Virus record (IMG/VR): IMGVR_UViG_3300042905_004053
Span: 1 to 36,610 of that record
Source of the DNA: a virus
Reading direction: 5' to 3' (one strand)
DNA: 36,610 bases
Positions within the stretch are counted from its first letter, which is position 1; each line of letters starts with the position of its first letter. The notes under the pieces are model-generated. The model had not been told where the DNA came from, searched no databases, and worked only from the letters and a program-made list of their open reading frames with translations. This document shows, in pieces, positions 1 through 33,432 of this stretch. The translations under genes were made by a program, and so were the position numbers.

Positions 1-158
1 ACAGTAGCCTCCGTGGCGAGCGTTGCTACAGTAGCTTCGGTGGCAAGAGTGCTTACCGTTGCCTCAGTCGCAAGCGTAGCAACCGTGGCTTCCGTAGCCA
101 AAGTGCTGACGGTAGCCTCTGTAGCCAGCGTGCTAACGGTCGCTTCAGTAGCCAGGGT
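1..158 (-). repeat. 27-bp coding tandem repeat (TLATEATV[S/A], about 6 copies, reaching the window edge)
   Basis: On the minus strand from 158 down to 1 a 27-base unit repeats about 5.85 times, encoding TLATEATVS or TLATEATVA each time. The amino acids are almost invariant, while third codon positions differ between copies (for example gct, gcc, gcg and gca for Ala; act, acc, acg and aca for Thr). The array is cut by the window boundary, so its true copy number is unknown. Confidence 0.9.
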
Positions 159-725
159 GGCGAGTGTCGTCTCGGTGGCTGCACCAGCTGGAAGGGCGCT
201 AGAAAGCACGTCAATCTGAAGGTGTCCATCCGTATCAGATAGCACTTGGCGAGCATCGCCGGAGCTATCCACGGCACCCATCATTTTTACTTTGCTATCA
301 GCGAGGGGCGACCCAGCTTCTTCGATAGCAAGCTCAGAAAGCGCAACAATCAGCTCACCAGCACCGTTAACTACCGGAGACTTATAGCGAAGGACTTGAA
401 TCGAGTCGCCAGCCGAAGGAGCTACTGAAAGCGTCTCAGCAAGGGAAAACGACGTCCCATCTACTTTCCAGACTCGGACCTCGGTCCCGTAAAGGCTGCC
501 GCCCGTAAAGTAGATGATATCGCCCTTGGCGGGGGTGCAGTCAGTAATGACCAACACCGAGGAAGTAGAACCAGCGTCTACCGTGCCAGTAGCCCATTCT
601 TGAACGGTCGAGTAGTTGGCTACCGACAGGCCAAACTGATGCTCTTTAATCGGCTCAACAGTAGAAAACTGCGCTGATAACCTGTCTTCTTTTTCCTGCG
701 AGCTATAACCTTTTGGCGTACTCAT
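1..725 (-). CDS. Tail/appendage repeat protein, N-terminal part (runs off window start)
   Basis: The reading frame starts at ATG 725, behind a very strong ribosome site (GGGGAGGGG, 2-3 bases away), and stays open to base 1 (241 complete codons). The N-terminus (MSTPKGYSSQEKEDRL) is followed by a beta-rich segment, then the linker VLSSALPAGAATETTLA, then six copies of a 9-residue unit TLATEATV(S/A) up to the edge. The same linker type (VTSALPTGAATETTLA) recurs twice in the open frame at the right end of the window, so I infer that these are two parts of one protein of at least 600 residues. Alternating beta and TLATEAT/TLAxI linkers are common in phage tail appendage proteins; the exact role (fibre, tip or adhesin) is unknown. 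It is the next late gene after the 176-aa protein at 776-1303. Confidence 0.8.
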   Translation of the reverse strand, partial: MSTPKGYSSQEKEDRLSAQFSTVEPIKEHQFGLSVANYSTVQEWATGTVDAGSTSSVLVITDCTPAKGDIIYFTGGSLYGTEVRVWKVDGTSFSLAETLSVAPSAGDSIQVLRYKSPVVNGAGELIVALSELAIEEAGSPLADSKVKMMGAVDSSGDARQVLSDTDGHLQIDVLSSALPAGAATETTLATLATEATVSTLATEATVSTLATEATVATLATEATVSTLATEATVATLATEAT

Positions 726-775
726 GTCCCCTCCCCGTCATTAAAGCGGATCTTTGTGTCATGTAAATTCTACAG

Positions 776-1303
776 TCACTCGTCTTTTTTACCAGTCTCG
801 ATTTGCAAAATTCTAGTTCTAAAGAAACCCATGGCCTCACCGATACCAAGGTGATTCACATAAATGTCTTTTGTAAAAGTCTTACCTGCACGCTGCAATG
901 TCGCTTTCACCCGTAGCGTGCTTTTACCCATGCAGAGGTTAGTAATTACGTCACCAGCTGGAATTACCCCAACCCATCGACCGATTGCATCCTCAGTGCC
1001 TGACACCGTATCAGTGTTTACCGCACTCCAAGTTCCGTCACCCGTCATCTCCGTAAGCGAAAACGTACACGATCCAGCCTGAATCGGGCGGCCAACAACT
1101 CGCTGCAAATAGGCCATCACATTAAGGTTGTCGCCCGTTTGAGAATACTGAGCGGCTAATTGCACGGCGATTGGCTTAAGCTCGCTTGAGAGTCTCGTGC
1201 AAATAACGGTCTGAGGCGCTACCGCTAACGGCAAATTGAAGGCAAGGTTTACCTCTTGCCAGTAATTCGTCGAAGTTAGCATTTGAGCGCGTCTCAGTGC
1301 CAT
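776..1303 (-). CDS. Hypothetical virion/tail-region protein (175 aa)
   Basis: I choose ATG 1303 (MALRRAQML) over the longer frame from 1333. It directly follows the stop of the upstream gene (1306), has GGAG about 6 bases upstream, and avoids a 28-base overlap. No family is recognised. The middle (about residues 50-140) reads as alternating beta strands with polar turns (QAGSCTFSLTEMTGDGTW), and the end is charged (RILQIETGKKDE). There is no signal peptide or membrane segment. Its place between two tail-type proteins in the late block suggests a structural or tail-associated role; this is an inference from context only. Confidence 0.75.
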   Translation of the reverse strand: MALRRAQMLTSTNYWQEVNLAFNLPLAVAPQTVICTRLSSELKPIAVQLAAQYSQTGDNLNVMAYLQRVVGRPIQAGSCTFSLTEMTGDGTWSAVNTDTVSGTEDAIGRWVGVIPAGDVITNLCMGKSTLRVKATLQRAGKTFTKDIYVNHLGIGEAMGFFRTRILQIETGKKDE

Positions 1304-1305
1304 GT

Positions 1306-2394
1306 TTACTCCGCGATGCTCAAGCCTACACAACCAGTCCGTGGGCCGCCGTGTGCCATAATTTCTATTTGAACTGTGTAGTGAGTTAAGGACGTTAACA
1401 CTGAAGCACTAACTGGAGCCATTTTGTAGAATCCGTTAACGTCAGCGACAAGCCCGGATTGAGCTATCCCAATAAGTGCTCCGTTTACGTCTCGGATGGA
1501 GAATGAGGCAGTCCCAAGGTCGTCAGTAACTTGGCCCGTATTATTAATCACCCAGAAGGTCCCTTGTAGTTGATTAATTGGGCTAATCGAGAAGACAGCC
1601 CTTGTCTCGTATTGAGGGAGTACAGGCTGCTGCGTAACAGGCAGCGTGTAGGTGATTGGCACCCCGTCTACTGCGATCGTCACTTTTGCCGCGTAGAAGT
1701 TGTGCTCAAAATCTAGAATTGACGGGATCGGTGTGATTTCGAAGAACCCGTTAATATCTGGAATAATCCCACTCTGCGTAAACCCTGGTACGGCGTTTCC
1801 GTTGTTGTCATAGACAATGAAAGAAGCGGTCCCAAGCCTGAGTGGGTTAGTAATCGTCCCCAATGAGTCAGCGACCCAGAAAGACCCGATAAAATCATTC
1901 GTATCATCGACCGCGAACATGCCAGAAATCGTGGCGATATTTGCGCCTGTAATCCCGGGGCTAACTAATGAGAGAGATACTAGGTTTGAATCTCTGTTCC
2001 CTACTGCATCCACTGCCCGAACGCCGACAAAGTAGGTTGTTGCTGGAACTAGCAGTGACCCGTCAGCGAGTGCGAACAGATCCGTAGTCAAAGACTGCGT
2101 CACAAGCGCGACATTGATCAGGTTAAAAAGCCCAGTCGCAGTACCCGCTTGAATGTAAATCTCGTATCTAACCGGGGTTGAGGGATCTAGGCCAGCTGAG
2201 TACTGCACTTGAAACTGGCCCAAAACCCCTAACCCTAAAAATGAAATCCCACCAAATACAGGCGGAATCAGATCGACAATGCACGCCTGACTTGACTCCT
2301 GTTTGACGTTCCCAGTGACAAGTTGGTTCCCCCAAATTGTAGCAAGGGACGTGCTCTGTACGACTGTTCCGCTCTGTATTAGTTGGTTACTCAT
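1306..2394 (-). CDS. Tail-region protein with FN3-like domain and a duplicated beta module
   Basis: 362 aa, start ATG 2394 behind AGGGGG. Residues about 44-145 resemble a fibronectin-type or Ig-like beta sandwich (RYEIYIQAGTA ... TYFVGVRAVDAVGNRDSN). Two copies of a roughly 85-residue module follow, at about 159-243 and 268-345. Both carry GSFWV/GTFWV, LGTASF, a D-N-G turn, QSG and a DxNGF(F/Y) motif. Secreted-adhesin-like beta modules of this kind are typical of phage tail or capsid appendages that touch host surfaces. No enzymatic motif is seen. The gene sits between the 783-aa propeller-like protein and the 175-aa unknown in the late operon. The appendage role is inferred. Confidence 0.8.
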   Translation of the reverse strand: MSNQLIQSGTVVQSTSLATIWGNQLVTGNVKQESSQACIVDLIPPVFGGISFLGLGVLGQFQVQYSAGLDPSTPVRYEIYIQAGTATGLFNLINVALVTQSLTTDLFALADGSLLVPATTYFVGVRAVDAVGNRDSNLVSLSLVSPGITGANIATISGMFAVDDTNDFIGSFWVADSLGTITNPLRLGTASFIVYDNNGNAVPGFTQSGIIPDINGFFEITPIPSILDFEHNFYAAKVTIAVDGVPITYTLPVTQQPVLPQYETRAVFSISPINQLQGTFWVINNTGQVTDDLGTASFSIRDVNGALIGIAQSGLVADVNGFYKMAPVSASVLTSLTHYTVQIEIMAHGGPRTGCVGLSIAE

Positions 2395-2403
2395 TGTGCC
2401 CCC

Positions 2404-4755
2404 TTAGGAGTCTCTCAAGCTCGGTCGGATATCCACCCCAGGAGGCGAGGTAAAGGTATACCGAATCAACGTCCCAATCGTGTTTGGAATGGTTCCCAAT
2501 GCCAACCAAGTAGTCCCACCATCAGTTGAGTATTGGAACTTGGTCGGCGCTGCCGTGATGCTTTCAGACACCAGCATATTGTTTGACAGGTCAAAAGCCC
2601 GGAAAGTGAGTGAGCTTGGCACCGCCACAGCATAGGTCTCTCGAAGCCTGAAACCGCAACGGGTCGGGCTTCCAACGCTTGAGTCGTCGTAAGAGTATTC
2701 CCAGAAATCAGACATCTCTTCGAGCGAATCATATCCAACCGCAAACGATGAGATCTGGATCGGTGTTGACTTTCCGATGCACTGGACCGCGACTCCAAGC
2801 TTGAATTGAATCTGAGATACCGACCCGATAGCTTGAACCTCATCTGGGTTAATCATCACCCATCCACCCGAGATGCTTCCGAACCCTGAGGTGCGGTAGA
2901 ACACTACGAGCTGAGAGCCTGGATCCCTGTTTTCAACCGTCGCTTTCAATCTCTTGATTGTAGTCGTAGGTACGAAATCCAAAACTTTCGTGACGATATA
3001 GGATGTCGTGCAGGCAATATCCGATTTCAAATCCATCGCGATAATGCCGCGTTGCCCGGGAGTAACCCCTGACGGTACAACAAAGAGCCAACCAAGCTGG
3101 TTTCCAAATCCGATCGGTGCGGCTTGCAGCTCTAGCTCAACCCCTTGTGGGCTTGTTCCCTCATATTGACGACTTCCGATCTGACCAAAACTCGCATCGA
3201 CGGAGTTGTTAATGACTTTTTTAGTCAGAAACTTGTTAATGACCGAAGTATTCACAATCGCTTGATCAATCGAGTTAGACCACGACGCATTGACAGCCGT
3301 GTTGGTGATATACTGCCCCACTCCGCTCGCATAGTTAGCAGCGGTGAGTGAGGGCCAGGTTGTTGCAAGTGGCGTCAATTCAGACAAGAGGCCCAAGTAC
3401 ATTGTGGTCGATGTTGCTAGAAATCCACACGATTGCCCATTGAGTATGCCGCCATTAACTGGTGCATCAACCGGAACCGCTTGGTTTTCCGAGTCAGTCA
3501 AAAGAATCGTTCCAGTCAGTGCTGGGAGGATGCTTGTGCGGTGCAACCACTGAGAGTTGGTGTAACCCCATGCGCGACCAATGGTGACCAAGCCAGCCGT
3601 CGAGGTCGTAATACCAGCGCCGCCAGCCGTTGCACTCAATTCGAAGTCGTTTGCTGTAGGGTTAGCGACAAAGTAGGTTGTGCCCAAGGTCAATCCGCCC
3701 GGGACAGTACCTGAGAGAATCATCACTAGGTCGTTTGCTTTGTAGCCATGCCCGACAATCTGCACCTTTCCTGGCGCTGCGGCAGTAATGGTGACGCTTG
3801 AGTCTGCTGCATATGTTACCGCAGCGGTAGTATCTCGAACAAAGTATTGGTGCGCTGAAGCAAGCCCGGTGTGTGTATAGAGCCGTCCATTGGTCGGATC
3901 ATAGATTGCGTTGGACGGTTCAATCTCGGTATTAATTTGCGTCATGACAACGGAAGTGGGACCCGCTGCCGCAGCGATTGCAGTACCGCCAAAGGTTGCA
4001 GAAAGTTGAAAGGTTCCGACGCCTGCGTTGACGACGAAATAACGAGTGTTTACAGCAAACGTGGAAGACGTCCACGCTGGACCAGCTTGGGAGGAAATGT
4101 ATACTTGGTTTCCGTTAACCCAAGGATGCCCAGCTACGTTGAACGTGACAGGCGTTCCAAGAGTTGGCGTTCCTGAAAGCGTGTTTGATGGGGAGAATTG
4201 CCCCAGGTGATAAACGGCTTTTTGGTTGGTCCCCGCTGCGATTGGGTATTGAATCGGGGTTGGTGATGGCCCCGCTGAAAAATCAGCTTGATCAATGTTG
4301 TTAACCAAAAACTGGCCCGACTGCGTAAAGGTTTGAAGCGTCGTCAGGTAAATCTTCCAACCAGTGGTGCCTGGCCCGTCCACGACCTTGATCGAGCGGA
4401 AGGTGTGCGCCGTTGTCCCTGAAATTGGAAGTTGGACAACAATCCTGCCCACATAGCTCGAAGCGCCCGTGGTCAGGTTGAAATTGTAAAGCATGATCGG
4501 ATGCTGTTGAGCAGTACCAGCAACCGCTCCGATTGCTGCGCCGACGATAAAAAGCCTGTTGTTTGTCGTGCAATAAACAAACCCGTTAGGTGAAATTCCG
4601 GTATCGGTGACCACGTCAACGTACTTGGTGACGGGCGAACCAAGGACGGGCACGCTATTGAAGGTTTTATTTTCAATATTCCCCTGAATCGTTGTTTTCG
4701 TTTGATCGTACACTGACACGACGTCGGCCAGTAGTTCTGTGTCTAACAGTTTCAT
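2404..4755 (-). CDS. Large tail-region structural protein with two FCCH-like beta modules (783 aa)
   Basis: Start ATG 4755 behind GAGGAGAATGAA. The protein is almost entirely beta-strand-like and rich in Thr, Ser and Gly, with propeller-like blades (NGFVYCTTNNRLFIVG; SNAIYDPTNGRLYTH). Residues about 203-263 and 330-388 are two copies of a module with the pattern G-H-x-(W/Y)-x-x-(G/A)-(N/D), then T-x-YFV, then (T/D)FxLSATxGG-x-(A/G)-I. This matches the FCCH-like insert known in many tail proteins. It is followed by QQLR-free beta repeats to the C-terminus. No catalytic residues are evident. The likely role is a tail, collar or appendage protein; the position after the putative decoration genes could also fit a head appendage. 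Confidence 0.8.
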   Translation of the reverse strand: MKLLDTELLADVVSVYDQTKTTIQGNIENKTFNSVPVLGSPVTKYVDVVTDTGISPNGFVYCTTNNRLFIVGAAIGAVAGTAQQHPIMLYNFNLTTGASSYVGRIVVQLPISGTTAHTFRSIKVVDGPGTTGWKIYLTTLQTFTQSGQFLVNNIDQADFSAGPSPTPIQYPIAAGTNQKAVYHLGQFSPSNTLSGTPTLGTPVTFNVAGHPWVNGNQVYISSQAGPAWTSSTFAVNTRYFVVNAGVGTFQLSATFGGTAIAAAAGPTSVVMTQINTEIEPSNAIYDPTNGRLYTHTGLASAHQYFVRDTTAAVTYAADSSVTITAAAPGKVQIVGHGYKANDLVMILSGTVPGGLTLGTTYFVANPTANDFELSATAGGAGITTSTAGLVTIGRAWGYTNSQWLHRTSILPALTGTILLTDSENQAVPVDAPVNGGILNGQSCGFLATSTTMYLGLLSELTPLATTWPSLTAANYASGVGQYITNTAVNASWSNSIDQAIVNTSVINKFLTKKVINNSVDASFGQIGSRQYEGTSPQGVELELQAAPIGFGNQLGWLFVVPSGVTPGQRGIIAMDLKSDIACTTSYIVTKVLDFVPTTTIKRLKATVENRDPGSQLVVFYRTSGFGSISGGWVMINPDEVQAIGSVSQIQFKLGVAVQCIGKSTPIQISSFAVGYDSLEEMSDFWEYSYDDSSVGSPTRCGFRLRETYAVAVPSSLTFRAFDLSNNMLVSESITAAPTKFQYSTDGGTTWLALGTIPNTIGTLIRYTFTSPPGVDIRPSLRDS

Positions 4756-4765
4756 TTCATTCTCC

Positions 4766-5011
4766 TCATGGGACTACTGTCCAGTTTACAGCTGAGATTA
4801 CATACCTGAAGGTCGTATCAGAGTATGTAAACGCTTTAGTGGCTTTTGCTGTCGCGCTAATTGATGCCGCTGTATATTCAATACTTGTTATAATTTCTTC
4901 GCAAGACCCGAGGTTTGAGTAGTTAATCACTGTCACTCTATCAATCGCCGTTAGGATTCTCTCCCTAAGCGGGGGGACATAAGGTGCGAAGGTTGATGAT
5001 ACGAATGCCAT
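4766..5011 (-). CDS. Hypothetical small structural protein (81 aa)
   Basis: The start ATG at 5011 shares a base with the TGA of the preceding gene (TGATG), so translation is probably coupled. The protein is short, neutral and rich in Ala, Thr and Ser (YTAASISATAKATKAFTYSDTTFRYVISAVNW). It has no recognised domain, no signal peptide and no clear membrane segment. It is one of three consecutive small coupled genes between the capsid region and the 783-aa tail protein. Such genes in this place often code for minor head or tail completion proteins; this is a context inference only. Confidence 0.65.
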   Translation of the reverse strand: MAFVSSTFAPYVPPLRERILTAIDRVTVINYSNLGSCEEIITSIEYTAASISATAKATKAFTYSDTTFRYVISAVNWTVVP

Positions 5012-5436
5012 CAGGCTAGCTCCAGTACTCTTAGTTCAGATGTCCTACCTGACTCACATACTGCCCAGATTTCCATTGCTGGATTCTCTTTGATGTCTAG
5101 CGCTAACTCTTCCAGCGTGGTTTTAGGATAACCGCTTGTAGACGTAACAGTTAGGTCCTCTCCAAAATAAACCGTCTGATCGCCCCAAACACGAATCGAC
5201 AGAGCGTTGCGGTCTGTTAACGGAGAAGGAGTCACCAACGCTGGTACGTCAGTAACCGTTACAACACTTGTTTTGACGTTCTTAGACAATCCGGTCGGCT
5301 CAAACGTGCCTGAGATTGATCCGCCAATTACATTGACGTCAGCAGCTACTTTATCCCCAGCAAAAGCTGTCCCAGTTTGAATCTGTGCCGTTGATGGCGA
5401 TGATTTGGTTGTAGGATAAAGATCCACCCGCGACAT
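5011..5436 (-). CDS. Hypothetical structural protein (141 aa)
   Basis: The start ATG 5436 overlaps the upstream stop (TAATG) and the stop overlaps the next start (TGATG), so it lies inside a tightly coupled trio. The N-terminal half is low-complexity Thr/Ser/Gly beta (GTAFAGDKVAADVNVIGGSI). The C-terminal part contains VWGDQTVYFGEDLTVTS and a short helical end (TTLEELALDIKENPAMEIWAV). I do not recognise a family. Context suggests a virion component near the head or tail interface. Confidence 0.7.
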   Translation of the reverse strand: MSRVDLYPTTKSSPSTAQIQTGTAFAGDKVAADVNVIGGSISGTFEPTGLSKNVKTSVVTVTDVPALVTPSPLTDRNALSIRVWGDQTVYFGEDLTVTSTSGYPKTTLEELALDIKENPAMEIWAVCESGRTSELRVLELA

Positions 5437-5771
5437 TAGCGCCTCTTATCGTAGCAAATTGCACCAGATACCGTTGCAGTTTGCACTCCACCGGTTAACG
5501 TCCAATCTACACGGACAAAGCTTAGGGGCGAAGGAACCGTAATCAGCTTAAGGCCCGTGGCCGTTGCGCTGCCGGTTGCAATCTCGGCAAAACTTACCCC
5601 GTCAATCGAGGTCTTGATGGAAAACGCAAGAGTCGTGCCACCGCTCAGAGCTGACACGTCGGCTGCAAACACATGGTCAACCGTGTGTTGCTCAAGGCTT
5701 ACTTTATCCGCCGATCCCGATGCTCCAGAGAGCGACCCAAGCCCGATGTTATATTTGCTGACAGAAGCCAT
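5436..5771 (-). CDS. Hypothetical beta-rich structural protein (111 aa)
   Basis: Start ATG 5771, about 20 bases downstream of the tRNA-like element. The pattern SIDGVSFAEIATGSATATGL ... SFVRVDWTLTGG resembles the small beta-sandwich discoidin-like or decoration-type proteins common next to phage capsid genes (x-S-x-DGxxF ... RVxxT-x-TGG). The basic tail YDKRR ends the protein. No catalytic motif. It may decorate the capsid or belong to a tail accessory; the family assignment is tentative. Confidence 0.7.
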   Translation of the reverse strand: MASVSKYNIGLGSLSGASGSADKVSLEQHTVDHVFAADVSALSGGTTLAFSIKTSIDGVSFAEIATGSATATGLKLITVPSPLSFVRVDWTLTGGVQTATVSGAICYDKRR

Positions 5772-5790
5772 AAGGTCTCCAAAAAGTTAG

Positions 5791-5870
5791 GCGCGGGAGC
5801 CGGACTCGAACCGACGACTGGTAGGGAAGCGTCCTTGCTCCTACCCGCTCTGCCTCTGAGCTACCCCGCA
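5791..5870 (-). tRNA. tRNA-like element with a 9-nt-expanded anticodon region (isotype undetermined)
   Basis: Read on the minus strand, 5870 to 5791. There is a 7-bp acceptor (TGCGGGG with TCCCGCG), a D arm GCTC-loop-GAGC, a 5-bp T stem (GTCGG/CCGGC) closing a canonical TTCGAGT loop, and a 4-nt variable stretch. The anticodon stem GGTAG/CTACC is intact, but it encloses 16 nt instead of 7, and the inner bases can pair further to leave a 9-nt loop without the usual U33. No CCA is encoded. A G at -1 could pair with the discriminator C. It lies between two structural genes in the late transcript, so it would be transcribed. It may be a degenerate tRNA, a mimic that attracts RNase P or other tRNA enzymes, or a tRNA that is not used for decoding. 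Confidence 0.6.
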
Positions 5871-5881
5871 CCTAAACTATC

Positions 5882-6217
5882 TTAGTATTCGTCTACGGCG
5901 TCAAAGCCTTGGACAACCAAATGGAAGTCCGCGTCTTGGTCTACGCCTGCTGCGTCATAAATACGGACGCTGACAGACGAGGCCGACGTTGCAGAGATAG
6001 AGGCAATGATACCAGCCGATCCGTAGATCACGCTCGCAATAGCCACGCACTCACGCGCAAATGGCTTTTCAAACGTAACAACGTAACGGCCCTGAGCGGA
6101 ACGAGCAACGGTAGCGTCTTTCGATCCAATCAGAAGCGATGCACTGCCACCCGTGCCATCCACCTTGAAGTGAAGCTGGCGCGGAAGACGTTGTGGGGAC
6201 TTGATTTCTCTCAGCAT
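5882..6217 (-). CDS. Putative capsid-adjacent decoration/minor structural protein (111 aa)
   Basis: First gene after the major capsid gene; start ATG 6217 with GGAGAAAG about 6 bases upstream. The protein is a small beta-rich fold (RYVVTFEKPFARECVAIASVIYG; SVSVRIYDAAG; DFHLVVQGFDAVDEY). The VRIYDxxGxxxDxxFHLVVxGFD pattern is one I associate with short phage proteins close to head genes. No enzymatic motif or membrane segment. A decoration role is inferred from position and size alone. The tRNA-like element begins 11 bases after its stop. Confidence 0.7.
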   Translation of the reverse strand: MLREIKSPQRLPRQLHFKVDGTGGSASLLIGSKDATVARSAQGRYVVTFEKPFARECVAIASVIYGSAGIIASISATSASSVSVRIYDAAGVDQDADFHLVVQGFDAVDEY

Positions 6218-6240
6218 GATTCTTTCTCCGTGGAAAGATA

Positions 6241-6264
6241 GGCGGGAGGCCGAAACCCCCCGCC
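6241..6264 (-). terminator. GC hairpin after the capsid gene (weak/leaky terminator candidate)
   Basis: On the minus strand GGCGGG and CCCGCC form a 6-bp stem around a 12-nt spacer, then the weakly T-rich TATCTTTCC. It lies between the capsid stop (6276) and the next start (6217). The tail of Ts is poor, so partial termination or mRNA 3' protection of the abundant capsid message is more likely than a full stop. Confidence 0.4.
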
Positions 6265-6275
6265 GATCAGTTTAC

Positions 6276-7487
6276 TTAGGTCGCAAGGCCCGTAATGACG
6301 CCGTGGAAGCTTGGGACGATGTACGACTCAAGGTATCCGCCGTAGCGTGCCTCGTAGGCGTCCGAAGAAGCCGTACGGAGGAACACGCTGCCGTCGTCGT
6401 CAAACCAGCCGAAGTCAGGCCGATGCTTCAGCTCAATGAAGTTGTCATTGAGCATGTACATGCGGTCGTCTTCGCAGAAGCGCTCTGGGAACACGCCGAC
6501 CGGACCAGCGGACGACATGAACTCGACGCCACGGAAGCTCACCTTGCCCTGAAGCTCAGGAGAGCGGGGCTCGATGATGTATTGCTTTTGGTCTTCGAGG
6601 ACGTTCAAGAGCTTACGGTACTGCGTGAAGCTCGTGATGATGAGGTTCGGCACCTTGCCGCACTTACGCTGAATCTCAAGCATCTGCTGATTCATGAGGT
6701 CAGGGGTGAGGCCAGCTCCGCCTGCAGCAAGCTGCGAAGCCTGCCAGCGACGGCCAACGGACACGCCATAGAGCGATCCGCCGGTTGCATCCAGAACGCC
6801 CTTAAGACCGCTTGGGTCGTTAGCTTGGGAGTTCTGCATGATGAGGGTCTTGGCGCCAGCATCAGCCGTCAAATCGACAGAGCCGGAGATACGAGCCAGC
6901 GAAACCTGCCGGGTAGCAGGATCAACCGACACGACTTCCCAGACGTTCGACACGCTGTAGGGGTTAGCCACAGAGTCAACGTTGATGTAGTCCTTCTCTT
7001 CGAAGTTAGCTTCCTTCCAGCTTGCAGCCGAAATGGTCACAACCGGAGCAGCAGCCGAGCCGGTAGCAACAGCAGCCGTGGACACGCCGAGCGAGCCCGA
7101 GCCGTCGTTGAAGAGAGCGCGGCTCATGTTGCGCATCCAAGATTCCACGCCCTTCTGGACGGAGAACTTGGTGAGTTCCACGAAAGCGCCTTCGTTGTTC
7201 GAAGCAGCCTTGATGGACTCGCGGTCAACTTGAATCACGGAGTACATCTTCTTAGCCGTGATCTGGGCGTCCTGAATCGCTGCGTAGTTCGGGGTCGGGA
7301 GAGATCCAGAGCCCACGCCGCCTGCGAAGGAGGTCGGGACAGCGATATCCATGCGCTTACCCGTGAAGTCGAAAGACTTCTTCACGCGGGCAAGGAGGAC
7401 GTTTGCCGAGTTGTAGGTGTTTTCAGAGAGCTTGCCGTACTTGATCTTGAAGAGATTAGTAGCGGTCGTCAGATTGAACTGAGCCAT
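6276..7487 (-). CDS. Major capsid protein (HK97-fold type)
   Basis: 403 aa, start ATG 7487 with AAGGG at a good distance. The gene directly follows the scaffold gene. Features of phage major capsid proteins are visible. The N-terminal arm leads into GKRMDIAVPTSFAGGVGSGSLPTP. A helical spine follows (ESIKAASNNEGAFVELTKF), then a P-domain/E-loop type region with VTISAASWKEANFEEKDYI, a DLMNQQMLEIQRKCGKVPNLIIT segment, and the C-terminal RYGGYLESYIVPSFHGVITGL, which resembles other capsid ends. Length fits the family (about 300-450 aa). It forms the procapsid shell around the scaffold. Assignment rests on context plus sequence character, without a search. Confidence 0.88.
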   Translation of the reverse strand: MAQFNLTTATNLFKIKYGKLSENTYNSANVLLARVKKSFDFTGKRMDIAVPTSFAGGVGSGSLPTPNYAAIQDAQITAKKMYSVIQVDRESIKAASNNEGAFVELTKFSVQKGVESWMRNMSRALFNDGSGSLGVSTAAVATGSAAAPVVTISAASWKEANFEEKDYINVDSVANPYSVSNVWEVVSVDPATRQVSLARISGSVDLTADAGAKTLIMQNSQANDPSGLKGVLDATGGSLYGVSVGRRWQASQLAAGGAGLTPDLMNQQMLEIQRKCGKVPNLIITSFTQYRKLLNVLEDQKQYIIEPRSPELQGKVSFRGVEFMSSAGPVGVFPERFCEDDRMYMLNDNFIELKHRPDFGWFDDDGSVFLRTASSDAYEARYGGYLESYIVPSFHGVITGLAT

Positions 7488-7498
7488 TGTTTACCCTT

Positions 7499-8659
7499 TC
7501 AAATGTCGTCAAAGAACAACGGGTCTTTGCCCGGATTCTTGACGGGAGTTTCTGCCGATGCCTTGCGGATCGACTTGTTGATCTTTTTTGCCAGCTTTTT
7601 CTCAGACTCAGACGTGTAGAGCTGTTCAATCACCTGGTCGATTTCTTCAGGGCTTGCCTGAGTTTGAATCGCCAAAGTTGCTAACTTCTCCACAAGGGCC
7701 TGATCTTGAGCCAGCTCTGGGTTCTTCTCGCCAAGACGAGTCTCAATCCGAGTAATCGTTTGCATATTCCGGTAATATGAACCGATTTGTTCTGCGGATA
7801 GATCGTCCGGCTTAAATCCAAGCTGCACCAGCTCGTCGTAACTCTTAACAAAAGCAGCCTTATCCATCCCGGTGCTTTGCATCACAGACTCAACCGTGGT
7901 TTCGAGTTCTTGCCTCGCTTTGGCCGTGGTTTGAGCTTGCTTTGCCTCTTCTTGCTTCCGGCGATAGTAAGACAGCTCCTCTTCAAGAGCCCGTGCCTTA
8001 CGTTCCTCGGGGGACAACAACTGAGCTTCCTCGAACTTTGCTTCCATCTGGCTCATAGTATCTTGATAGATCTGTGAGGGATCGACGCCCAAGGGTTCTG
8101 CTACAGTTTCGATGAAGCCGCGCAAGTCCTTCTTGTTCACAAGAAGATCATGCACTTTTTCCACCATTGACTTCATTTTGCCACGTTCCTGCTCAAACGC
8201 AGCTTTTTCTTTTTTATAGTCCGTGTAGATTTTATCTAGGTGCTTCTGCTGGGAATACCGCGCCTGAAGCTCAGACAGAGTAACTTGCTCAACCTTTCCG
8301 TCAATCTTAACTGGAAACTTCGCATCCAGAGGAAGGTCAAAGGCCTCTTCGCCGTGTTGGATCTTGAGTCGTTTGGCTTCGGCTTGTTTCTCACGAGTCT
8401 CCTCGTCCTTAGCCTTTGGTTCCTTGGCCTTAGCTTTGGCCTCTGCCTTGGAATCGGAGTCCTCGCCCTTATCCTTTGCCTTGGACCCTAGCTCACGCTC
8501 TGCGGCCTTCTCAGCTTGGATTTCTTCTTTAGCTTCGTTCTTGGCTACTTCGGACTTGAAGTTACTGACGGCATCAAGCTGTTCCCAGCTTACCGGCGAC
8601 TCTCCTCCACCTGTTTCGATGGGTTGGGATACGTTCGCCGTGGATTGGATTTCGCTCAT
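7499..8659 (-). CDS. Capsid scaffolding protein
   Basis: 386 aa, starting in a TAATG overlap with the portal stop. Composition is highly charged: a Lys/Glu/Ala-rich low-complexity segment (about residues 40-100), then long predicted coiled coils (YTDYKKEKAAFEQERGK; EELSYYRRKQEEAKQ) and a basic C-terminus (KKLAKKINKSIRKAS), typical of the capsid-binding helix-loop-helix end of scaffolds. Gene order portal-scaffold-capsid is canonical for P22/T7-like phages. It would guide capsid assembly and leave before or during DNA packaging. No protease motif is visible. Confidence 0.85.
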   Translation of the reverse strand: MSEIQSTANVSQPIETGGGESPVSWEQLDAVSNFKSEVAKNEAKEEIQAEKAAERELGSKAKDKGEDSDSKAEAKAKAKEPKAKDEETREKQAEAKRLKIQHGEEAFDLPLDAKFPVKIDGKVEQVTLSELQARYSQQKHLDKIYTDYKKEKAAFEQERGKMKSMVEKVHDLLVNKKDLRGFIETVAEPLGVDPSQIYQDTMSQMEAKFEEAQLLSPEERKARALEEELSYYRRKQEEAKQAQTTAKARQELETTVESVMQSTGMDKAAFVKSYDELVQLGFKPDDLSAEQIGSYYRNMQTITRIETRLGEKNPELAQDQALVEKLATLAIQTQASPEEIDQVIEQLYTSESEKKLAKKINKSIRKASAETPVKNPGKDPLFFDDI

Positions 8660-10914
8660 TAGATTCCCCGAGTTGGCTCAACGGGTCCAAGTTGGCCCAT
8701 GAGTTGAGTTTCGAGAGGAGGGGCTTCCGGCATAGCCGCCTGCTCTGGGATGGGTGAGTTTGCCGGATTAACTGGAAGGGGGTTTGCCTGCAAAGGACTT
8801 GCTGGCGGCATGGGAGGTGCCATCATGCCGAGAGGCATCTGCTCAGGTCCAGCAGGAAGTGGGGCTGGAGCTGGCATTGGCACTTCTGCCACCTTCACTT
8901 TGTAGAACATTGGGAAGAGTTCAAGCTGCGCCAAGAGTTCGGCGAACTTAGGATTCACCTTGGCCTGATCCAGCATGAACATTTCATGCACGAAAACATG
9001 GTCCACAAGGTTCCGCTGCTTATCGGGCGAAGTTTTATACTTGAAGCTAAACTCCTGAATCTGGCGGGTGTGAACCTTCCAGTGAACGATATGGTTCTCA
9101 AACTCCTGCGGGCTCATGGCCTCCGCCTCTTGCTCAGAAGCCTCAAGAAGCTTCTCAGTCTCAGCTTCAGCAGAACGAACCGCAACAGTAGCCGCGTCCA
9201 CAAACTTATCAGACTGTGCAAGATCAAGCATGTCGATCACTTGCTCGCCCGTAAACTTGTCTGGGAACCGCTCGGAAAGATCGAGAAGAGTCTGAGTCCG
9301 CGCTGCCACAGACTTAGGAAGCGCAGAAGAGTTTTGAATCCGAATATCGTAATCCGAGTTTAGATCCGAAGCCCTGAAGAACTCGGTCATGTACTCGTTA
9401 TTCTTACCCAATACCCGGACCATGCGCTTGTCCGAGTCATCGTAATAGTCATGCGCAACAGACAGCGTCATCTCGGCAATCTGCCGGATACACTCGTTCC
9501 ATTTGAGCACCAGCTCATTGTATCGCTCAGACTCCTGCTCGCTCAAAAACTGAAGCGCAACCCCAGCCTTAATGCCGGGAGGTGGCTCGCCACGAGACAC
9601 GCCAAAGACGCCTGAGATCTGCTGAAACTCTTCCTTCAGGTCCGCGCGGAACTTAAACACGTCCGCAGGCACGCTCTGAGCCACGGCAAGGGCTGGGGGC
9701 TGCGGTCCTTTGTATTGGACGATAGTTACGTCATTCCCAAGCTTCTGAATGTCCGTAGAACCTGCAGGCACCATCCACTTAGGATGGGACACTAGCAGGA
9801 TATTCCGCAGGATCATGTTCGTCAGGTTGTTGTAAGTGCCCGTCAACCCTTTGATGATCTCAAAGAACGAGTGGCCATAAAGCTCGCCAGGGTAATCAAT
9901 GTCCGTGAAACGGATGAATGGAAGCCCTTGGTGCGAGTATGGGCTTTCACGGTTCTCCAGAATGCAGTCCTTGGTAAACCGAATGACCCGGCCCTTTTCC
10001 ATGCCCGGCTGCTTTTTGGCGGTAAACGTGAAAACTGTAATCTCATTTCGAACGGGCCTAAGCTCCATTCGGTCGTAATCGTAAATCTGGTCATTGTGCG
10101 TCTTAATCTGGGACGCCTTGTCCGGGTACTGAATCCGAAGCGCGTCACAGTTAACCGTTTCCTTGGTGAAACAATACTTCACCATGTCCATCTTAGGCTG
10201 CTTATCGAGAAGCACCTCAGGAGATAGCTCGATGCGGTAGTCCACGTCCCCAATACGAACCGGGCGTTCAACAAACATAGGACGACCAGACTCGTCCTTG
10301 CGCTGATTCCCTTGCTCATCAAGAAGCGGGATCTTTTGCCCATGCTTCTTCCGCGCTTCAACATATGCTGGGGACAGCGGGCCTTTGCTATCGTCCCAGC
10401 AAACGAACAGGTAGCTTTCCCCCATGACCATAGCATGGGTAGCAAGCTGAAGCTGGATCATGCCCTCGAAATCGTTTTCGTACCAAATGTGGTCCAGAAG
10501 ACCCTTACAGGCCTTAGCTGACAGCTTGTCCTGCAGTTCATCGTTGGTCGGCAGAATGGCGACAGCAGGTTTAAACTTAATCAGCCTCGAAGCCCGATTC
10601 TTAGTCAGGTCGAAAAGGTGGTTGGCGACAATCTTACGAAGGAACGTAGAGCGGTCGGCTGCGCGGTCCCGGTTCTCTGCACGGGCCTCGGATTCCTGAT
10701 ATTGAATCCCTTTGTACAGAGCAAGATTTCGACGCTGAATCCTGATCCGCGGCTCGTTCTCATGCTCCAAGAAGTGAAGCTCGGCCTGAAGCCAGTTCAG
10801 GATTTCTTTCTCGTTTGACGGGTCGTCCAGGTCGATTGCGTAAATCGGCTTAGTCGGCTGGGAGTAAACCTTGTCCGAGTTCAGGTCGTCAAAAGAGTAG
10901 GCCGTCGTGCTCAT
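8659..10914 (-). CDS. Portal protein (P22-like, large)
   Basis: 751 aa, immediately upstream of scaffold and downstream of terminase. The N-terminal half shows the pattern of P22-type portals: EPRIRIQRRNLALYKGIQYQ, NHLFDLTKNRASRLIKFKP, a membrane-free alpha/beta body, then LPFIRFTDIDYPGELYGHSF with the long helical PGIKAGVALQFLSEQESERY stretch (wing/stem). The extreme C-terminus is a roughly 80-residue Pro/Met/Ala-rich tail (PMPAPAPLPAGPEQ ...), likely disordered. It forms the dodecameric DNA channel at one capsid vertex and docks terminase and the tail adaptor. The length (700+ aa) favours the P22 family over shorter HK97-type portals. Confidence 0.9.
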   Translation of the reverse strand: MSTTAYSFDDLNSDKVYSQPTKPIYAIDLDDPSNEKEILNWLQAELHFLEHENEPRIRIQRRNLALYKGIQYQESEARAENRDRAADRSTFLRKIVANHLFDLTKNRASRLIKFKPAVAILPTNDELQDKLSAKACKGLLDHIWYENDFEGMIQLQLATHAMVMGESYLFVCWDDSKGPLSPAYVEARKKHGQKIPLLDEQGNQRKDESGRPMFVERPVRIGDVDYRIELSPEVLLDKQPKMDMVKYCFTKETVNCDALRIQYPDKASQIKTHNDQIYDYDRMELRPVRNEITVFTFTAKKQPGMEKGRVIRFTKDCILENRESPYSHQGLPFIRFTDIDYPGELYGHSFFEIIKGLTGTYNNLTNMILRNILLVSHPKWMVPAGSTDIQKLGNDVTIVQYKGPQPPALAVAQSVPADVFKFRADLKEEFQQISGVFGVSRGEPPPGIKAGVALQFLSEQESERYNELVLKWNECIRQIAEMTLSVAHDYYDDSDKRMVRVLGKNNEYMTEFFRASDLNSDYDIRIQNSSALPKSVAARTQTLLDLSERFPDKFTGEQVIDMLDLAQSDKFVDAATVAVRSAEAETEKLLEASEQEAEAMSPQEFENHIVHWKVHTRQIQEFSFKYKTSPDKQRNLVDHVFVHEMFMLDQAKVNPKFAELLAQLELFPMFYKVKVAEVPMPAPAPLPAGPEQMPLGMMAPPMPPASPLQANPLPVNPANSPIPEQAAMPEAPPLETQLMGQLGPVEPTRGI

Positions 10915-10923
10915 GGTTTGATC

Positions 10924-11133
10924 TTACCCTACGTTCTCAAAAATATCTTTGGTGAGACTGTCCCGCACTTCGTCAGTCATCTTCTGGAATGCAGCGTCGG
11001 CTGGCATGTACTGAATCGAATGGGTGCTCTTCTGCATGGCTTTTAGCTCGGTCGTCGTCCACCAAAGGGCTGCAAGGCAAACAACCTGCACGATAAACAT
11101 CAAGCTAAACCCTACTGCCATCCAAAGCATCAT
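10924..11133 (-). CDS. Small membrane protein (69 aa) between terminase and portal
   Basis: I choose ATG 11133 (MMLWMAVGF). It has GGAG 5 bases upstream and overlaps the terminase stop (ATGA); the GTG at 11139 is the alternative. One strong N-terminal transmembrane helix (about residues 2-24, WMAVGFSLMFIVQVVCLAALW) is followed by a charged, helical cytoplasmic or periplasmic tail (DEVRDSLTKDIFENVG). No family recognised. A membrane peptide in this position is unusual; it could be a lysis accessory or a superinfection factor, but nothing in the sequence decides this. Confidence 0.65.
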   Translation of the reverse strand: MMLWMAVGFSLMFIVQVVCLAALWWTTTELKAMQKSTHSIQYMPADAAFQKMTDEVRDSLTKDIFENVG

Positions 11134-12557
11134 GCCCACTCCATGTCGTAATCGTCTACCGGCTCGCCAGTCTCAGTGAATCCGGGGAAGTCGTCTGTGA
11201 TCCTAGCCCCTCGGAAGTCCTCGGAAGCCTCTTTGTTCACTTCAGTAGTCTTGACCAGACTATACTTGTCTGCGTCCAAGACATAGCGCAAGCAATCAAT
11301 GGCGTGGTCATGCTGCTTTAGGATCTTCCCCTTGTCGTCCTTCCGGTAGTTCAGCATCTCCCATTTCAGATTCTTGCACCGATCCGAAAGGACTAGGCTA
11401 CCGTTCAAGAGAATGTCCTTGATGAGTGACAGCCCGGATAGCTTGTCAGACTTAGCCTTCTGGGTGGGCTCTAGGCCTTCTCCGAAGTGGTCCAGCATCT
11501 CGTTATGGAACCACGTCTCAGCTTCGTCATATCCTTGGCGCCAGTCCTTCCGGGGCATGAGTTCGTGCTTTTTATCCAATGCACGGCGCCCGATCTTTAA
11601 GACCGTCATCTCAGCCTGAGCCGTCTCGTAAATCTCGTCTAGGACGTACACCTTCCGGGTGTATGGATTGATCGCCACGAACAGGCAAGCGAAGCAGGAA
11701 GCGCCTGCAGGGTCCGCCCACCAATACCAGTCTAGCTTCCTGGCATCCTTGGCAATCTCAGCCATGATCGCAGCGTGAGGCCTGACATGCCTGCTGGGGT
11801 CAAACATGGGGAAGATAGTCGAGGCGCCGCCACGGACGAACAGGGCTTCGTATTCCCGCTCCCACTTGTCCCCCTCACTTTTGGAGTAAAGCTCCTCCTT
11901 CTTCACCTTGAGCCAGTCGGTCTGGATGTGAGGATTTGAGGACGTAGGAAACCGAAAGAAAGCCTTGGCGGGATCTCGAAGACACTCGGCTGCTAGGTGG
12001 ACAAAGTGATTCTCAGTCTCAGGCGGCGTGCCGATCACGAACAGAGGGGCGTCATGGGCTGCACGGTTCGGATCAAAGGCATCGTGGAACTCTGGCCTAA
12101 AGTCCTTGAACTCGTCGTAAACGATAAGGCCCTTAGGCTTAACCCCTCGGTAGGCGTCTACGTTGTCTGAGCCGTCCAGTTTGATGAATGAGCCGTTGTT
12201 GAACTCGATTCGGTTCTCAGTGTTATTGATGGACCTAATCCAGTCGAACGGCCCGAAGGTCTGGATGCGGCGGGACGCCCATAGGATTTCCTTTGCCTGC
12301 TTTTGGTAGGGGGCGAAGTAATAGTTCTCTGATCCCGGATAGGTCCAAGCCCACCGCCAAAGCAGGTAGGCCATGAGTTCGGTCTTACCGAAGTTTCGAC
12401 CGCACTGAGCGAAGACTAGGCGGCGACGCTCTGCAAGCAGGGCCCTTCCGATCATGATCTGAGCGGGGTGTGGCTGCCAGACTGCGTGTAGCTTTTCGAG
12501 GCCCGAGGCGATGCGATGGAGCTCCCGGAGCTGAACATCACGCGGGATCGGGTTCAT
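11130..12557 (-). CDS. terL: Terminase large subunit (packaging ATPase/nuclease)
   Basis: 475 aa. I prefer ATG 12557 (MNPIPRD), which has GGGAG 7-8 bases upstream, over TTG 12563. The ATPase half has a Walker A variant CGRNFGKT (about 52-59), Walker B LIVYDEF (about 144-150) with the catalytic Glu, and the coupling motif IGTPP (about 176-180). The nuclease half has the RNase-H-like first acidic site WADPAGAS (D282) and the final HDHAIDCLRY (D421). This is the motor that translocates genome DNA through the portal and cuts it at the end. The gene overlaps its upstream neighbour by 20 bases. All catalytic motifs look intact. Confidence 0.95.
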   Translation of the reverse strand: MNPIPRDVQLRELHRIASGLEKLHAVWQPHPAQIMIGRALLAERRRLVFAQCGRNFGKTELMAYLLWRWAWTYPGSENYYFAPYQKQAKEILWASRRIQTFGPFDWIRSINNTENRIEFNNGSFIKLDGSDNVDAYRGVKPKGLIVYDEFKDFRPEFHDAFDPNRAAHDAPLFVIGTPPETENHFVHLAAECLRDPAKAFFRFPTSSNPHIQTDWLKVKKEELYSKSEGDKWEREYEALFVRGGASTIFPMFDPSRHVRPHAAIMAEIAKDARKLDWYWWADPAGASCFACLFVAINPYTRKVYVLDEIYETAQAEMTVLKIGRRALDKKHELMPRKDWRQGYDEAETWFHNEMLDHFGEGLEPTQKAKSDKLSGLSLIKDILLNGSLVLSDRCKNLKWEMLNYRKDDKGKILKQHDHAIDCLRYVLDADKYSLVKTTEVNKEASEDFRGARITDDFPGFTETGEPVDDYDMEWA

Positions 12558-12894
12558 AGCCAATCTCCCGGGGCGTGAGTTCTACGGGCCGGGCGAACGG
12601 GTCGGAATGGAGGATGGCTTCCACCTCTTTGGGCGATAGCTGCACCTGCACCTCTTTGACTGTGGCGTTCACCTCGACAGCCTTGAGTTGGGCTCGGGTG
12701 TATTTGAGAAGCTGGGTCCATGCCTGCAGGCGTTCACCGTCTTTGAGGTCGCCATGGACTAGCAGCTCCAGGACGACGCGAAGATCTGCGTCGGGCCCGA
12801 AGTCCTTTCCTGTGAGTTCCTGCAAGACTTCCCGGATGGCGTCGATCGCAGCACGACGGGCCTTTTGCGGGACGCCTGCTTCACCCTTCAGCAT
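12538..12894 (-). CDS. terS: Probable terminase small subunit (118 aa)
   Basis: Located directly upstream of terL and overlapping its start by 20 bases; it starts in a TGATG overlap with the gene before it. The protein is mostly helical (RRAAIDAIREVLQELTGKD; LKDGERLQAWTQLLKYTRAQLKAVE), followed by a region like the oligomerisation core of small terminases and a flexible end with VQVQLSPKEVEAILHSDPFAR. Small terminases recognise the packaging site and load TerL. The call rests mostly on position, size and helical content; no definite helix-turn-helix is proven. Confidence 0.6.
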   Translation of the reverse strand: MLKGEAGVPQKARRAAIDAIREVLQELTGKDFGPDADLRVVLELLVHGDLKDGERLQAWTQLLKYTRAQLKAVEVNATVKEVQVQLSPKEVEAILHSDPFARPVELTPREIGYEPDPA

Positions 12895-13163
12895 CAGACT
12901 TTGCGGGGGCGACCTGGTCCCCTCTTTACTGCTTCGGAGTGTGGGGTCTGCACGGGCTCGAGGACGCTCAGGAGGATGAGCAGGTCACCGAGGGGCCAAT
13001 CTCTCCAGCGATTGCGTAGGTAGTCCTGGCAGCGTTCCTCGATGAGATCCCGGACGACTTGAGCGGCCAAGGGGTGATTAGGGTCTACTCCGAGGATGCG
13101 GGAGAAGTAGTCGTCTGCGGTTTCGAGTTCGGCGCGACAAGCGCTTTCGGTCCGTTTGAACAT
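12894..13163 (-). CDS. First late gene: small protein with AT-hook-like C-terminus (89 aa)
   Basis: The start ATG 13163 lies immediately beside the repeat-rich control region, and no Shine-Dalgarno is seen upstream, so the message may be leaderless or start very close. The body is helical and acidic (AQVVRDLIEERCQDYLRNRWRDW). The end RGPGRPRKV is a textbook AT-hook-like GRP core with flanking basics, suggesting minor-groove DNA binding. Position upstream of the terminase genes suggests a packaging-site or late-regulation DNA-binding protein, possibly the true small terminase partner. Function is inferred, not recognised. Confidence 0.65.
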   Translation of the reverse strand: MFKRTESACRAELETADDYFSRILGVDPNHPLAAQVVRDLIEERCQDYLRNRWRDWPLGDLLILLSVLEPVQTPHSEAVKRGPGRPRKV

Positions 13164-16955: not shown

Positions 16956-16983
16956 TGATGAAATCGTGAAGGATTTTTGCCGG

Positions 16984-17012: not shown

Positions 17013-17045
17013 ACAGCCTAATCCCCTGCAGGGAAGGAGAACGGT

Positions 17046-20055: not shown

Positions 20056-20227
20056 GCTGGTCGATTTTGCCTTCGATTCTTTCGAGCCTCTTCTCCGTTG
20101 CAACCAGTCTCTCACGCGCAGAATCCTTAGGTTCGAAAGTTTCGTAGGCCCAACCGACCATAGCAGCGCCGCCGCCAAGCACTGTGGCTAGAGTCAGAAC
20201 AAGCTGAATGACGGCTCCCTCTTTCAT
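20015..20227 (-). CDS. Small membrane-anchored coiled-coil protein (i-spanin or holin-like candidate, 70 aa)
   Basis: ATG 20227 overlaps the upstream stop (ATGA). N-terminal transmembrane helix (about residues 5-27, AVIQLVLTLATVLGGGAAMVGWA) then a charged coiled coil (DSARERLVATEKRLERIEGKIDQLADRI). This is the layout of a very short inner-membrane spanin, or of a pinholin regulator. The overlap of 41 bases with the nuclease gene is normal for this tight cassette. Candidate only. Confidence 0.65.
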   Translation of the reverse strand: MKEGAVIQLVLTLATVLGGGAAMVGWAYETFEPKDSARERLVATEKRLERIEGKIDQLADRIAGPQRERH

Positions 20228-20781
20228 TTCTTCACCGGAGGGTACATCAGTTCATAAGCTTCTGACCGTCCAGGTTGGCCAGTCAGGCGTTCTAAAAGCG
20301 ATTTTTCGCGCTTAGAAGCTTCTTCTCTCATTTTATCAATAAGCTGATAAACAGCTATCTCGGCCAGATCGCTGCTTTGTTTTGGAGTGCCTTTTTCAGC
20401 AAAAGAAAAGTGCTGCTCAGGATACTTAACTGGTCTTTTCTCTCGAATATCCCGCCCATGAAGCAGCTCATGAACAAGTGTTGCTGCCATGCCTTCATAA
20501 CCCTGCGGGTGTACGAAAATCTCACCAGTAGGCATCATGTACCCTAGCGGTGCATTTTGTTCTTTTGGGCTCTTTTCCACTGGACCGGCAACATGCGGAA
20601 ACTGTTTCTCTGGAACGCTAAACTCTTGCCGATAAAAATCTATTAGGGCTTTCAGCTTTTGAGAGTCAGATAAGCTAGAAAACTCTTGAGAACTTTCTGG
20701 AGGAATAGCTCCAGACATGGCTGCAATATCTTGCCATCCCTTAGCTTGAGATTTGCTGTGCTTATCTGACTCTAGTGCCAT
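20224..20781 (-). CDS. Putative HExxH zinc metallopeptidase-like protein (185 aa)
   Basis: ATG 20781. The motif LVHELLHGRD gives HELLH at about residues 104-108, the classic zinc-binding and catalytic HExxH. An upstream beta strand, PTGEIFVHPQGYEGMAATLVHEL, places the helix as in gluzincin/metzincin folds. A third ligand is not certain (H123 or E128 in PEQHFSFAEKG are candidates). No signal peptide, so it acts in the cytoplasm or virion unless carried across. It is embedded in the lysis cassette next to membrane proteins. It might cleave a cell-wall or envelope protein or process a virion protein; the role is inferred. Confidence 0.7.
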   Translation of the reverse strand: MALESDKHSKSQAKGWQDIAAMSGAIPPESSQEFSSLSDSQKLKALIDFYRQEFSVPEKQFPHVAGPVEKSPKEQNAPLGYMMPTGEIFVHPQGYEGMAATLVHELLHGRDIREKRPVKYPEQHFSFAEKGTPKQSSDLAEIAVYQLIDKMREEASKREKSLLERLTGQPGRSEAYELMYPPVKK

Positions 20782-20782
20782 A

Positions 20783-21037
20783 TTATTTCACGCAGCGGGT
20801 CGCCATATAGTTGAGCATCTTCTGGAAGTCGCTCTGGCGCAGAGAGATAAAGCCATCGGCCTGCGCGAACGGAATAAACTCAACATTGTTTTCTGGATCA
20901 CTGCACTGGAGTCCGCCAGAGGTTACGTCTACCAAGCAGACCGTCACCTTAGGCCCGGTTCCGCAGGCACTAGAGCCTACGGATAAGCCGAGCAATGTCA
21001 CCAGCAGCAGACTGTTTTTCTTCAGGAGTTTTCGCAT
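20783..21037 (-). CDS. Secreted, probable lipoprotein-type protein (84 aa; o-spanin candidate)
   Basis: I choose ATG 21037 (MRKLLKKNSLLLVTLLG), with AGGG 7 bases upstream; the longer frame starts with TTG 21052. Signal peptide: basic N-terminus, hydrophobic LLLVTLLGLSVG, then SSAC with a Cys that could be lipidated (an imperfect lipobox, -3 is Ser). The mature part has three further cysteines (VCLVDVTSGGLQC, TRC) and acidic turns. It starts inside the preceding gene, overlapping it by 68 bases, the embedded layout known for Rz1. Candidate for the outer-membrane spanin; a free periplasmic protein is the alternative. Confidence 0.65.
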   Translation of the reverse strand: MRKLLKKNSLLLVTLLGLSVGSSACGTGPKVTVCLVDVTSGGLQCSDPENNVEFIPFAQADGFISLRQSDFQKMLNYMATRCVK

Positions 21038-21191
21038 TTTTCGCCCTTTCAAATATTTCAGCAGAATCCATAATAAACTTAGCCGGATTGTCTCCGAAAG
21101 TGGCTTTTAGCCAACCAGACAATTCTGAAATAAGCTTAATGATAGCTGGAAGCGCCTTCAGTAACTCGAAAAGGCCTAAGAATGCACTCAC
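20970..21191 (-). CDS. Lysis-region amphipathic protein (73 aa; holin-associated candidate)
   Basis: GTG 21191 in a GTGA overlap with the gene before it. Amphipathic and partly hydrophobic N-terminal helix (FLGLFELLKALPAIIKLISELSGWL), then a charged helical half (DSAEIFERAKNAKTPEEKQSAAGDIARLIRRL). The shape recurs beside phage holins. It may be a membrane-associated antiholin or an i-spanin variant, but no feature decides. Confidence 0.65.
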   Translation of the reverse strand: MSAFLGLFELLKALPAIIKLISELSGWLKATFGDNPAKFIMDSAEIFERAKNAKTPEEKQSAAGDIARLIRRL

Positions 21192-21373
21192 TCAATAGGC
21201 TTCCTGCTAAACTTCTTCAGGAAGTCCACAATAGCCTGCAGGGCTTTCTCAGGCTGCTCTCCTGGGATCAGCAGGCAAACAGCGATCACAGCACTGAGCA
21301 GGCCGATGATTGCGGACAACACCGCGGGTCCCTTCTCAACGATCATCTGAAGAACGTGCATAATCTGTTCCAT
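21188..21373 (-). CDS. Holin candidate (61 aa)
   Basis: ATG 21373, 8 bases after the transglycosylase stop. One strong transmembrane helix (about residues 16-37, AVLSAIIGLLSAVIAVCLLIPG) with a charged basic C-terminus (LKKFSRKPIE). An internal ATG (MHVLQM) could give a second start, as in holin/antiholin pairs. Its position next to a transglycosylase and spanin candidates supports a role in membrane permeabilisation at lysis. Confidence 0.7.
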   Translation of the reverse strand: MEQIMHVLQMIVEKGPAVLSAIIGLLSAVIAVCLLIPGEQPEKALQAIVDFLKKFSRKPIE

Positions 21374-21380
21374 AATAGCA

Positions 21381-21875
21381 TCACCCTTTCTGCGCGGCCT
21401 TTATGTCCTGGAGGTAGCCGTTCACCTTATCTACATACTGCTGATTTTTGTAACGCCCGTCCAAGTTTTTGACCGCTGATCCAGCGTTATAGGCCGCGAT
21501 CAAATCATCTTTCTGTGCATACTTTTTCGCGAGCCGTTTGAGCAGCAGGGAGCAATAAGTAAGGTTAGTCTTTGGCTCTAACATCTGGAAGATCGGCCCT
21601 TTAAGTCCTAGCTCCCGAGCTACTGCACCCATCACTTGAGTCAGACCCCAGCTCGTCATCTGCATGACAGTCTCTGTTGCTTCAGAAATCCGATTGTCCT
21701 GAGCATGTTCCTTAGTCTTAAACAGCCACTTATAATGGGGCTCAAATCGAATAGCGAAGCGATCTCCCCCGCTCTCAGTCTGAACGATTGCCGCGATGAT
21801 GTTAGCAGGGACATTCTGGTCGTCTGCTACGTCCTCAATCTCAACCCAAGGTAGTTTCTGAATCCAAGTGCTCAT
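21381..21875 (-). CDS. Lytic transglycosylase (SLT/GH23-like)
   Basis: 164 aa, ATG 21875 overlapping the stop of the 1052-aa gene (ATGA). Goose-type lysozyme/SLT motifs: catalytic Glu in IVQTESGGD (E34), SWGLTQVM (about 75-82), and AAYNAGSA (about 127-134). It cleaves the glycan of peptidoglycan between MurNAc and GlcNAc. No signal peptide or membrane anchor, so it needs a holin or is carried in the virion with the ejection proteins just upstream. Either endolysin or virion muralytic enzyme; the holin and spanin candidates just downstream favour endolysin. Confidence 0.92.
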   Translation of the reverse strand: MSTWIQKLPWVEIEDVADDQNVPANIIAAIVQTESGGDRFAIRFEPHYKWLFKTKEHAQDNRISEATETVMQMTSWGLTQVMGAVARELGLKGPIFQMLEPKTNLTYCSLLLKRLAKKYAQKDDLIAAYNAGSAVKNLDGRYKNQQYVDKVNGYLQDIKAAQKG

Positions 21876-27143: not shown

Positions 27144-27147
27144 TTGC

Positions 27148-27492
27148 TCACCTCAAAATAACGACTGTTAGACTAGCCGCGTTAGATCCTTCGTTCTTCA
27201 GATAGATATAGTCCGAAGTCCACGCTGTATCCCCGTCTCGAACCTGATAGCCCGTGCTTTTAAGGATCAGCTTCCCGGAGGGGATAACACCGAGGTTGTG
27301 CTGGATCTGAAGCTCTTGGCCTGCGTTAATCGTAACCCGGGCCGTATAGGATTTGAAGTTATCCTTGAAGGTCAGGTTTGTCAGGGCCGTCGTAATGTCG
27401 GCCAAGGTATTGGCTAGGTAAACTTCTAAATACTTTACGATTTCCTCAGCCGTCCGGCCTACCCTAAGCTTTTTAGGTCTTTGAATCCTCAT
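27148..27492 (-). CDS. Small tail-associated beta protein (114 aa)
   Basis: ATG 27492 directly after the nozzle gene (3 bases). Basic N-terminus (MRIQRPKKLRVGRTAEEIVK), a helix (LEVYLANTLADITTALTNL), then a beta half (YTARVTINAGQELQIQHNLGVIPSGKLIL ... IYLKNEGSNAASLTVVIL). The HNLG-x-IPSG core recalls short structural proteins that follow tail-nozzle genes in podoviruses, perhaps bridging nozzle and ejection proteins. Unnamed family. Confidence 0.75.
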   Translation of the reverse strand: MRIQRPKKLRVGRTAEEIVKYLEVYLANTLADITTALTNLTFKDNFKSYTARVTINAGQELQIQHNLGVIPSGKLILKSTGYQVRDGDTAWTSDYIYLKNEGSNAASLTVVILR

Positions 27493-27494
27493 AC

Positions 27495-30236: not shown

Positions 30237-30239
30237 AGT

Positions 30240-31430: not shown

Positions 31431-31431
31431 A

Positions 31432-32440: not shown

Positions 32441-32441
32441 A

Positions 32442-33430: not shown

Positions 33431-33432
33431 GG

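Follow-up and report, generated by a model that had tools for sequence, protein, structure and literature searches.

An uncultured tailed phage genome with a circular map, very probably opened inside a modular tail-fibre-like gene

Microdiversity fragments short-read viral assemblies (PMC6487183). The contig described here resembles the microdiverse tail-region breaks of viral metagenomes in that work, with a strain-variable tail gene and a neighbouring contig that bridges the break. It differs from them in that the break lies within one gene with a degenerate 9-residue array, and in that we infer its cause rather than derive it from reads. For the array, the described counterpart is the IANMATKDD repeat of Tcar0761, which crystallography showed to form a trimeric alpha/beta coiled coil (PMC4786415). 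The phage as a whole is comparable to phages with SU10-type portals and T4-like terminases, as its portal scores above the SU10_portal cut-off and its large terminase (TerL) matches Terminase_6N, but the best named phage TerL is only 23% identical.

The window, that is, the whole stretch of DNA analysed, is a complete IMG/VR record of 36,610 bases that IMG/VR classes as linear. Our results very strongly favour the reading that it comes close to the complete genome of an uncultured tailed phage with a circular map, opened inside a modular tail-fibre-like gene that probably encodes a nonad-shaft protein, with about 367 bp unassembled between the two edges and strain variation as the likeliest cause. 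The contig thus covers essentially one whole genome, about 37.0 kb long, in which the late genes form a single block. Both the phage genome and the assembly break are ordinary, and the assembly comes near to closing the genome without quite doing so.

Both edges of the window cut open reading frames on the minus strand. The frame running from 725 to 3 begins with an ATG and stays open for 241 codons to the left edge, and the frame from 36610 to 35528 is open at the right edge and holds 360 codons plus a stop. A linker motif occurs in the left fragment (SSALPAGAATETTLA) and in the right fragment (SSVLPTGAATETTLA and TSALPTGAATETTLA). The only overlap between the two ends is 2 bases long, read as GT on the minus strand and as AC on the plus, and no terminal direct repeat was found in the window beyond these two common bases. 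The contig is therefore not closed by assembly, which does not deny a circular map. Plain end-to-end concatenation gives a stop 39 codons past the junction, while a 2-base merge keeps the frame open for 360 codons. An earlier note on this DNA had described the open frames, the linker on both sides, the array, the 2-base overlap and the stop positions, all of them correctly.

The two fragments are joined in another contig. G001 (IMGVR_UViG_3300044638_003006), a 16,712-bp IMG/VR contig from another sample, is otherwise 99.5-99.98% identical to the window. Over window positions 1-11983 it shows 2 mismatches and a single 27-bp gap, and over positions 32276-36610 its identity is 99.54%. In G001 the two matches are neighbours on one strand, and 367 bp separate the two window edges. 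The intact tail gene of G001 is one open frame of 733 codons that holds both window fragments: the N-terminal part (1..725, minus strand; residues 1-241 98% identical) and the C-terminal part (35528..36610, minus strand; 100% amino acid identity). Along this gene, the left fragment is followed by the array end (VATLATAAAQTDG), then by about 110 codons of linker, and then by VIDANNTT as on the right fragment. A single frame with both halves was seen in every relative whose frames were inspected (G001, G002, G003, G004, G007 and G011), none of which had the two pieces as separate genes, and the proposal of the earlier note that both ends are halves of one tail gene holds. Chance as the source of the linker motif at both ends is excluded, because an independent near-identical contig and several relatives hold both pieces in one frame.

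The same comparison overturns the junction that the earlier note had proposed, in which the terminal AC bases are merged and the protein continues as EAT-V-IDANN. The 2 leftover bases of the left fragment plus the 367 bp make 369 bp, or 123 codons, and because of this the AC merge stays in frame yet omits 123 codons. One may ask whether the virus in the window carries a 369-bp in-frame deletion, in which case the merged junction (ACTGTCATTGATG) would be genuine and the contig complete, its ends overlapping by 2 bases. The merge does keep the frame for 360 codons, and relatives gain and lose modules in this stretch. However, the otherwise near-identical G001 has the 367 bp; the initial 261 bp of the missing segment persist in G002 and G011, and G002 likewise retains the sequence leading into VMDANN. 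Moreover, a 2-base overlap is far below what an assembler uses or leaves, and the 24-mer of the merged junction was in no contig of the viral collection, from which the window's own record was possibly left out, while the 30-mer of the true right junction was found there in G001. We thus regard such a deletion as very improbable. The 2-base overlap and the agreement of frames are cheap coincidences, and the in-frame merge proves little; contig ends joined in frame may look convincing and yet miss the true sequence by over 100 codons. In the preferred reading of an unassembled gap, the missing 367 bp are known from the virus of another sample, and the window's own virus could differ there.

The map closes at the window ends, as the earlier note had expected: G001 bridges them, and more distant relatives extend the observation. 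The N- and C-terminal parts of the tail gene (tailN and tailC) lie side by side in G001 and also in G002, G004, G005, G007, G011, G018 and G020, these seven being divergent from the window. G007 (35,626 bp) and G018 (34,711 bp) are rotations of the window gene order: G007 opens within the early plus-strand genes and stops shortly past the small genes upstream of TerL, and the break in G018 falls in the area of the 1052-aa protein. The genome map is therefore circular. If the genome were linear, with its fixed ends in the tail gene, this would agree with the linear class of the record, and with the fact that contigs G009 (L018 start) and G019 (L068 start) likewise end inside this gene. But all eight contigs with adjacent tailN and tailC read through the gene, a terminus within a gene that is intact elsewhere is implausible, and the contig ends of relatives are scattered. 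Fixed linear ends are rejected as contradicted by the bridging contigs, and we give this reading next to no credence. The tail gene may break assemblies repeatedly, as the ends of G009 and G019 indicate.

Circularity of the map is distinct from permutation of the DNA molecule. Among about 25 related records, contig ends are scattered across the map, which fits a permuted or redundant genome without proving it. IMG/VR gives a terminal repeat for none of the relatives listed, and none of them is a finished circular member. Virion DNA probably is permuted or carries terminal redundancy, and headful (pac) packaging with permuted DNA is compatible with the scattered ends. For the circularly permuted genome that had been suggested, the circularity is demonstrated and the permutation is compatible with the data.

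What, then, broke the assembly? The left edge sits inside a tandem array of 27-bp units (4..159, minus strand; 5.8 copies, 72% matches) that encodes the nonad VSTLATEAT, and the earlier note had accordingly proposed a cut at a repeat with loss of bases or repeat units. Bases are indeed missing, but the 367-bp stretch consists of the last array unit and the linker region, so that about one unit of it is array and the rest is non-array linker. The idea that identical 27-bp repeats simply collapsed within a single genome draws on the position of the left edge. However, the right edge lies about 340 bp outside the array. No exact repeat of at least 18 nt exists in the intact tail gene of G001, and the missing segment has no 15-mer in common with the minus strand of the window; for these reasons simple repeat collapse is unlikely. 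A cut at a repeat thus applies to the left edge only, where the copies are too degenerate on their own to stop a k-mer assembler, and exact-repeat collapse as the sole cause was rejected. The earlier note was right about closure, and wrong about the exact junction and the cause.

We then propose a model for the break. The contig starts in the 27-bp array and ends in a downstream domain of the same tail-fibre-like gene, and the break most likely arose because short-read assembly failed to resolve strain variation, in the form of array length changes and segments common to co-occurring phages. Such diversity is likelier than repeat collapse because the region is modular, variable in length, and has exact stretches of at least 100 nt in common with other phages. 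The array ranges from 3 to 11 nonads among relatives, and the middle of the gene is modular, with variable nonad number, SALPTGAATETTLA repeats and inserted domains, such that modules are gained or lost. Two contigs that are otherwise divergent, G002 and G011, match the missing segment at 94-97% identity over its first 261-273 bp, and the gene also has exact runs of at least 100 nt in common with them.

Variation is visible even between the window and G001. An in-frame indel site lies at 128..128 (gap after window base 127), where G001 has one further 27-bp unit. The unit boundaries at this site have TGGCTAC in common, and the second unit of the window looks like a fusion of the second and third units of G001 at this word. 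It is tempting to speculate that the 27-bp array is a natural length-switch, in which single in-frame nonads are gained or lost by recombination at short common words and whole shaft modules are exchanged with phages that co-occur, which would adjust tail-fibre length or host range; we consider this possible but rather doubtful. A separate stretch of variation lies in the tail-fibre-like gene at 32442-32963 (minus strand), where about 120 bp (32754-32870) hold nearly all G001 mismatches of 32276-36610. Here the divergent G009 (L018) matches the G001 version at 97% and the window version at 88%, and the stretch appears from these identities to be a recombination tract.

A tail-fibre shaft is probably the best functional reading of the gene, from its position among tail genes and the character of the repeat. 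No Pfam model matches the tail gene. In a PDB search, the intact tail protein had 5APZ, a Tcar0761 nonad construct, as its only match (E = 1.5, weak), and so did the longer array of G002 (E = 0.23, weak). A permutation test of the register of the repeat against IANMATKDD gave p = 0.037, and when the tail alignment was run as a profile against the PDB, it returned chance-level matches only. The array is like the Tcar0761 nonads (5APZ, PMC4786415) in its 9-residue period, in the alignment of VST-LAT-EAT to IAN-MAT-KDD, and in a hydrophobic a position and an (L/M)AT layer. It differs in that E/A/T replace K/D/D and in its setting in a phage tail gene, and the match is statistically weak and confined to sequence. 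This is weak evidence, and the resemblance to the nonads of alpha/beta coiled coils is suggestive only. The protein probably has a virion-side domain at its N-terminus, followed by a nonad shaft folded as a trimeric alpha/beta coiled coil, by middle modules that can be exchanged, and by a C-terminal part that is conserved. An AlphaFold2 monomer model of the intact relative (5 sequences) was poor (pLDDT 38) and unusable. This tail gene supplies nonad shafts that naturally vary in length, a set on which alpha/beta coiled coils in phage fibres could be tested.

When the window is closed, the terminase, portal, head, tail and lysis genes form a single late block on the minus strand, which the window as given splits in two. 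The first arm (776..13163, minus strand), whose order is kept in G001 and G007, has a small terminase candidate at the block start. It is followed by TerL (11130-12563), the portal (8659-10914; Pfam SU10_portal, 34 bits against a cut-off of 30), a scaffold candidate (7499-8659) and the major head protein (6276-7487), and structural and tail genes lead from the head protein down to the tail gene. After the tail gene, the second arm (20224..35505, minus strand) is continuous with the first in G007 and G018. It encodes a tail protein (33433-35505) whose C terminus carries a C1q-like domain (Pfam C1q, 37.8 bits), the tail-fibre-like gene at 32442-32963, a structural protein (27495-30236), the 1052-aa protein (21872-25030) and an SLT transglycosylase (21381-21875).

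The head protein had no match among 50,697 phage records, and a near-DNA search with the first 25 kb of the window against the same records returned nothing. The portal had no relative in genome contigs, and hence no host or prophage was found. Elsewhere in the window, a homing-endonuclease-associated repeat (HNH_repeat) shares one minus-strand frame (16005-17252) with a metallophosphoesterase-like domain, and a single tRNA-Asn (gtt) lies at 18933-19007 on the plus strand, near the switch between plus- and minus-strand genes. In G027 (L063; IMGVR_UViG_3300044621_002641), positions of about 5600-9700 correspond to window 21.9-26.2 kb. The flanking genes are 98-100% identical there, a 384-aa protein falls to 58% and the 1052-aa protein is unmatched, which we read as an apparent module swap in putative ejection proteins.
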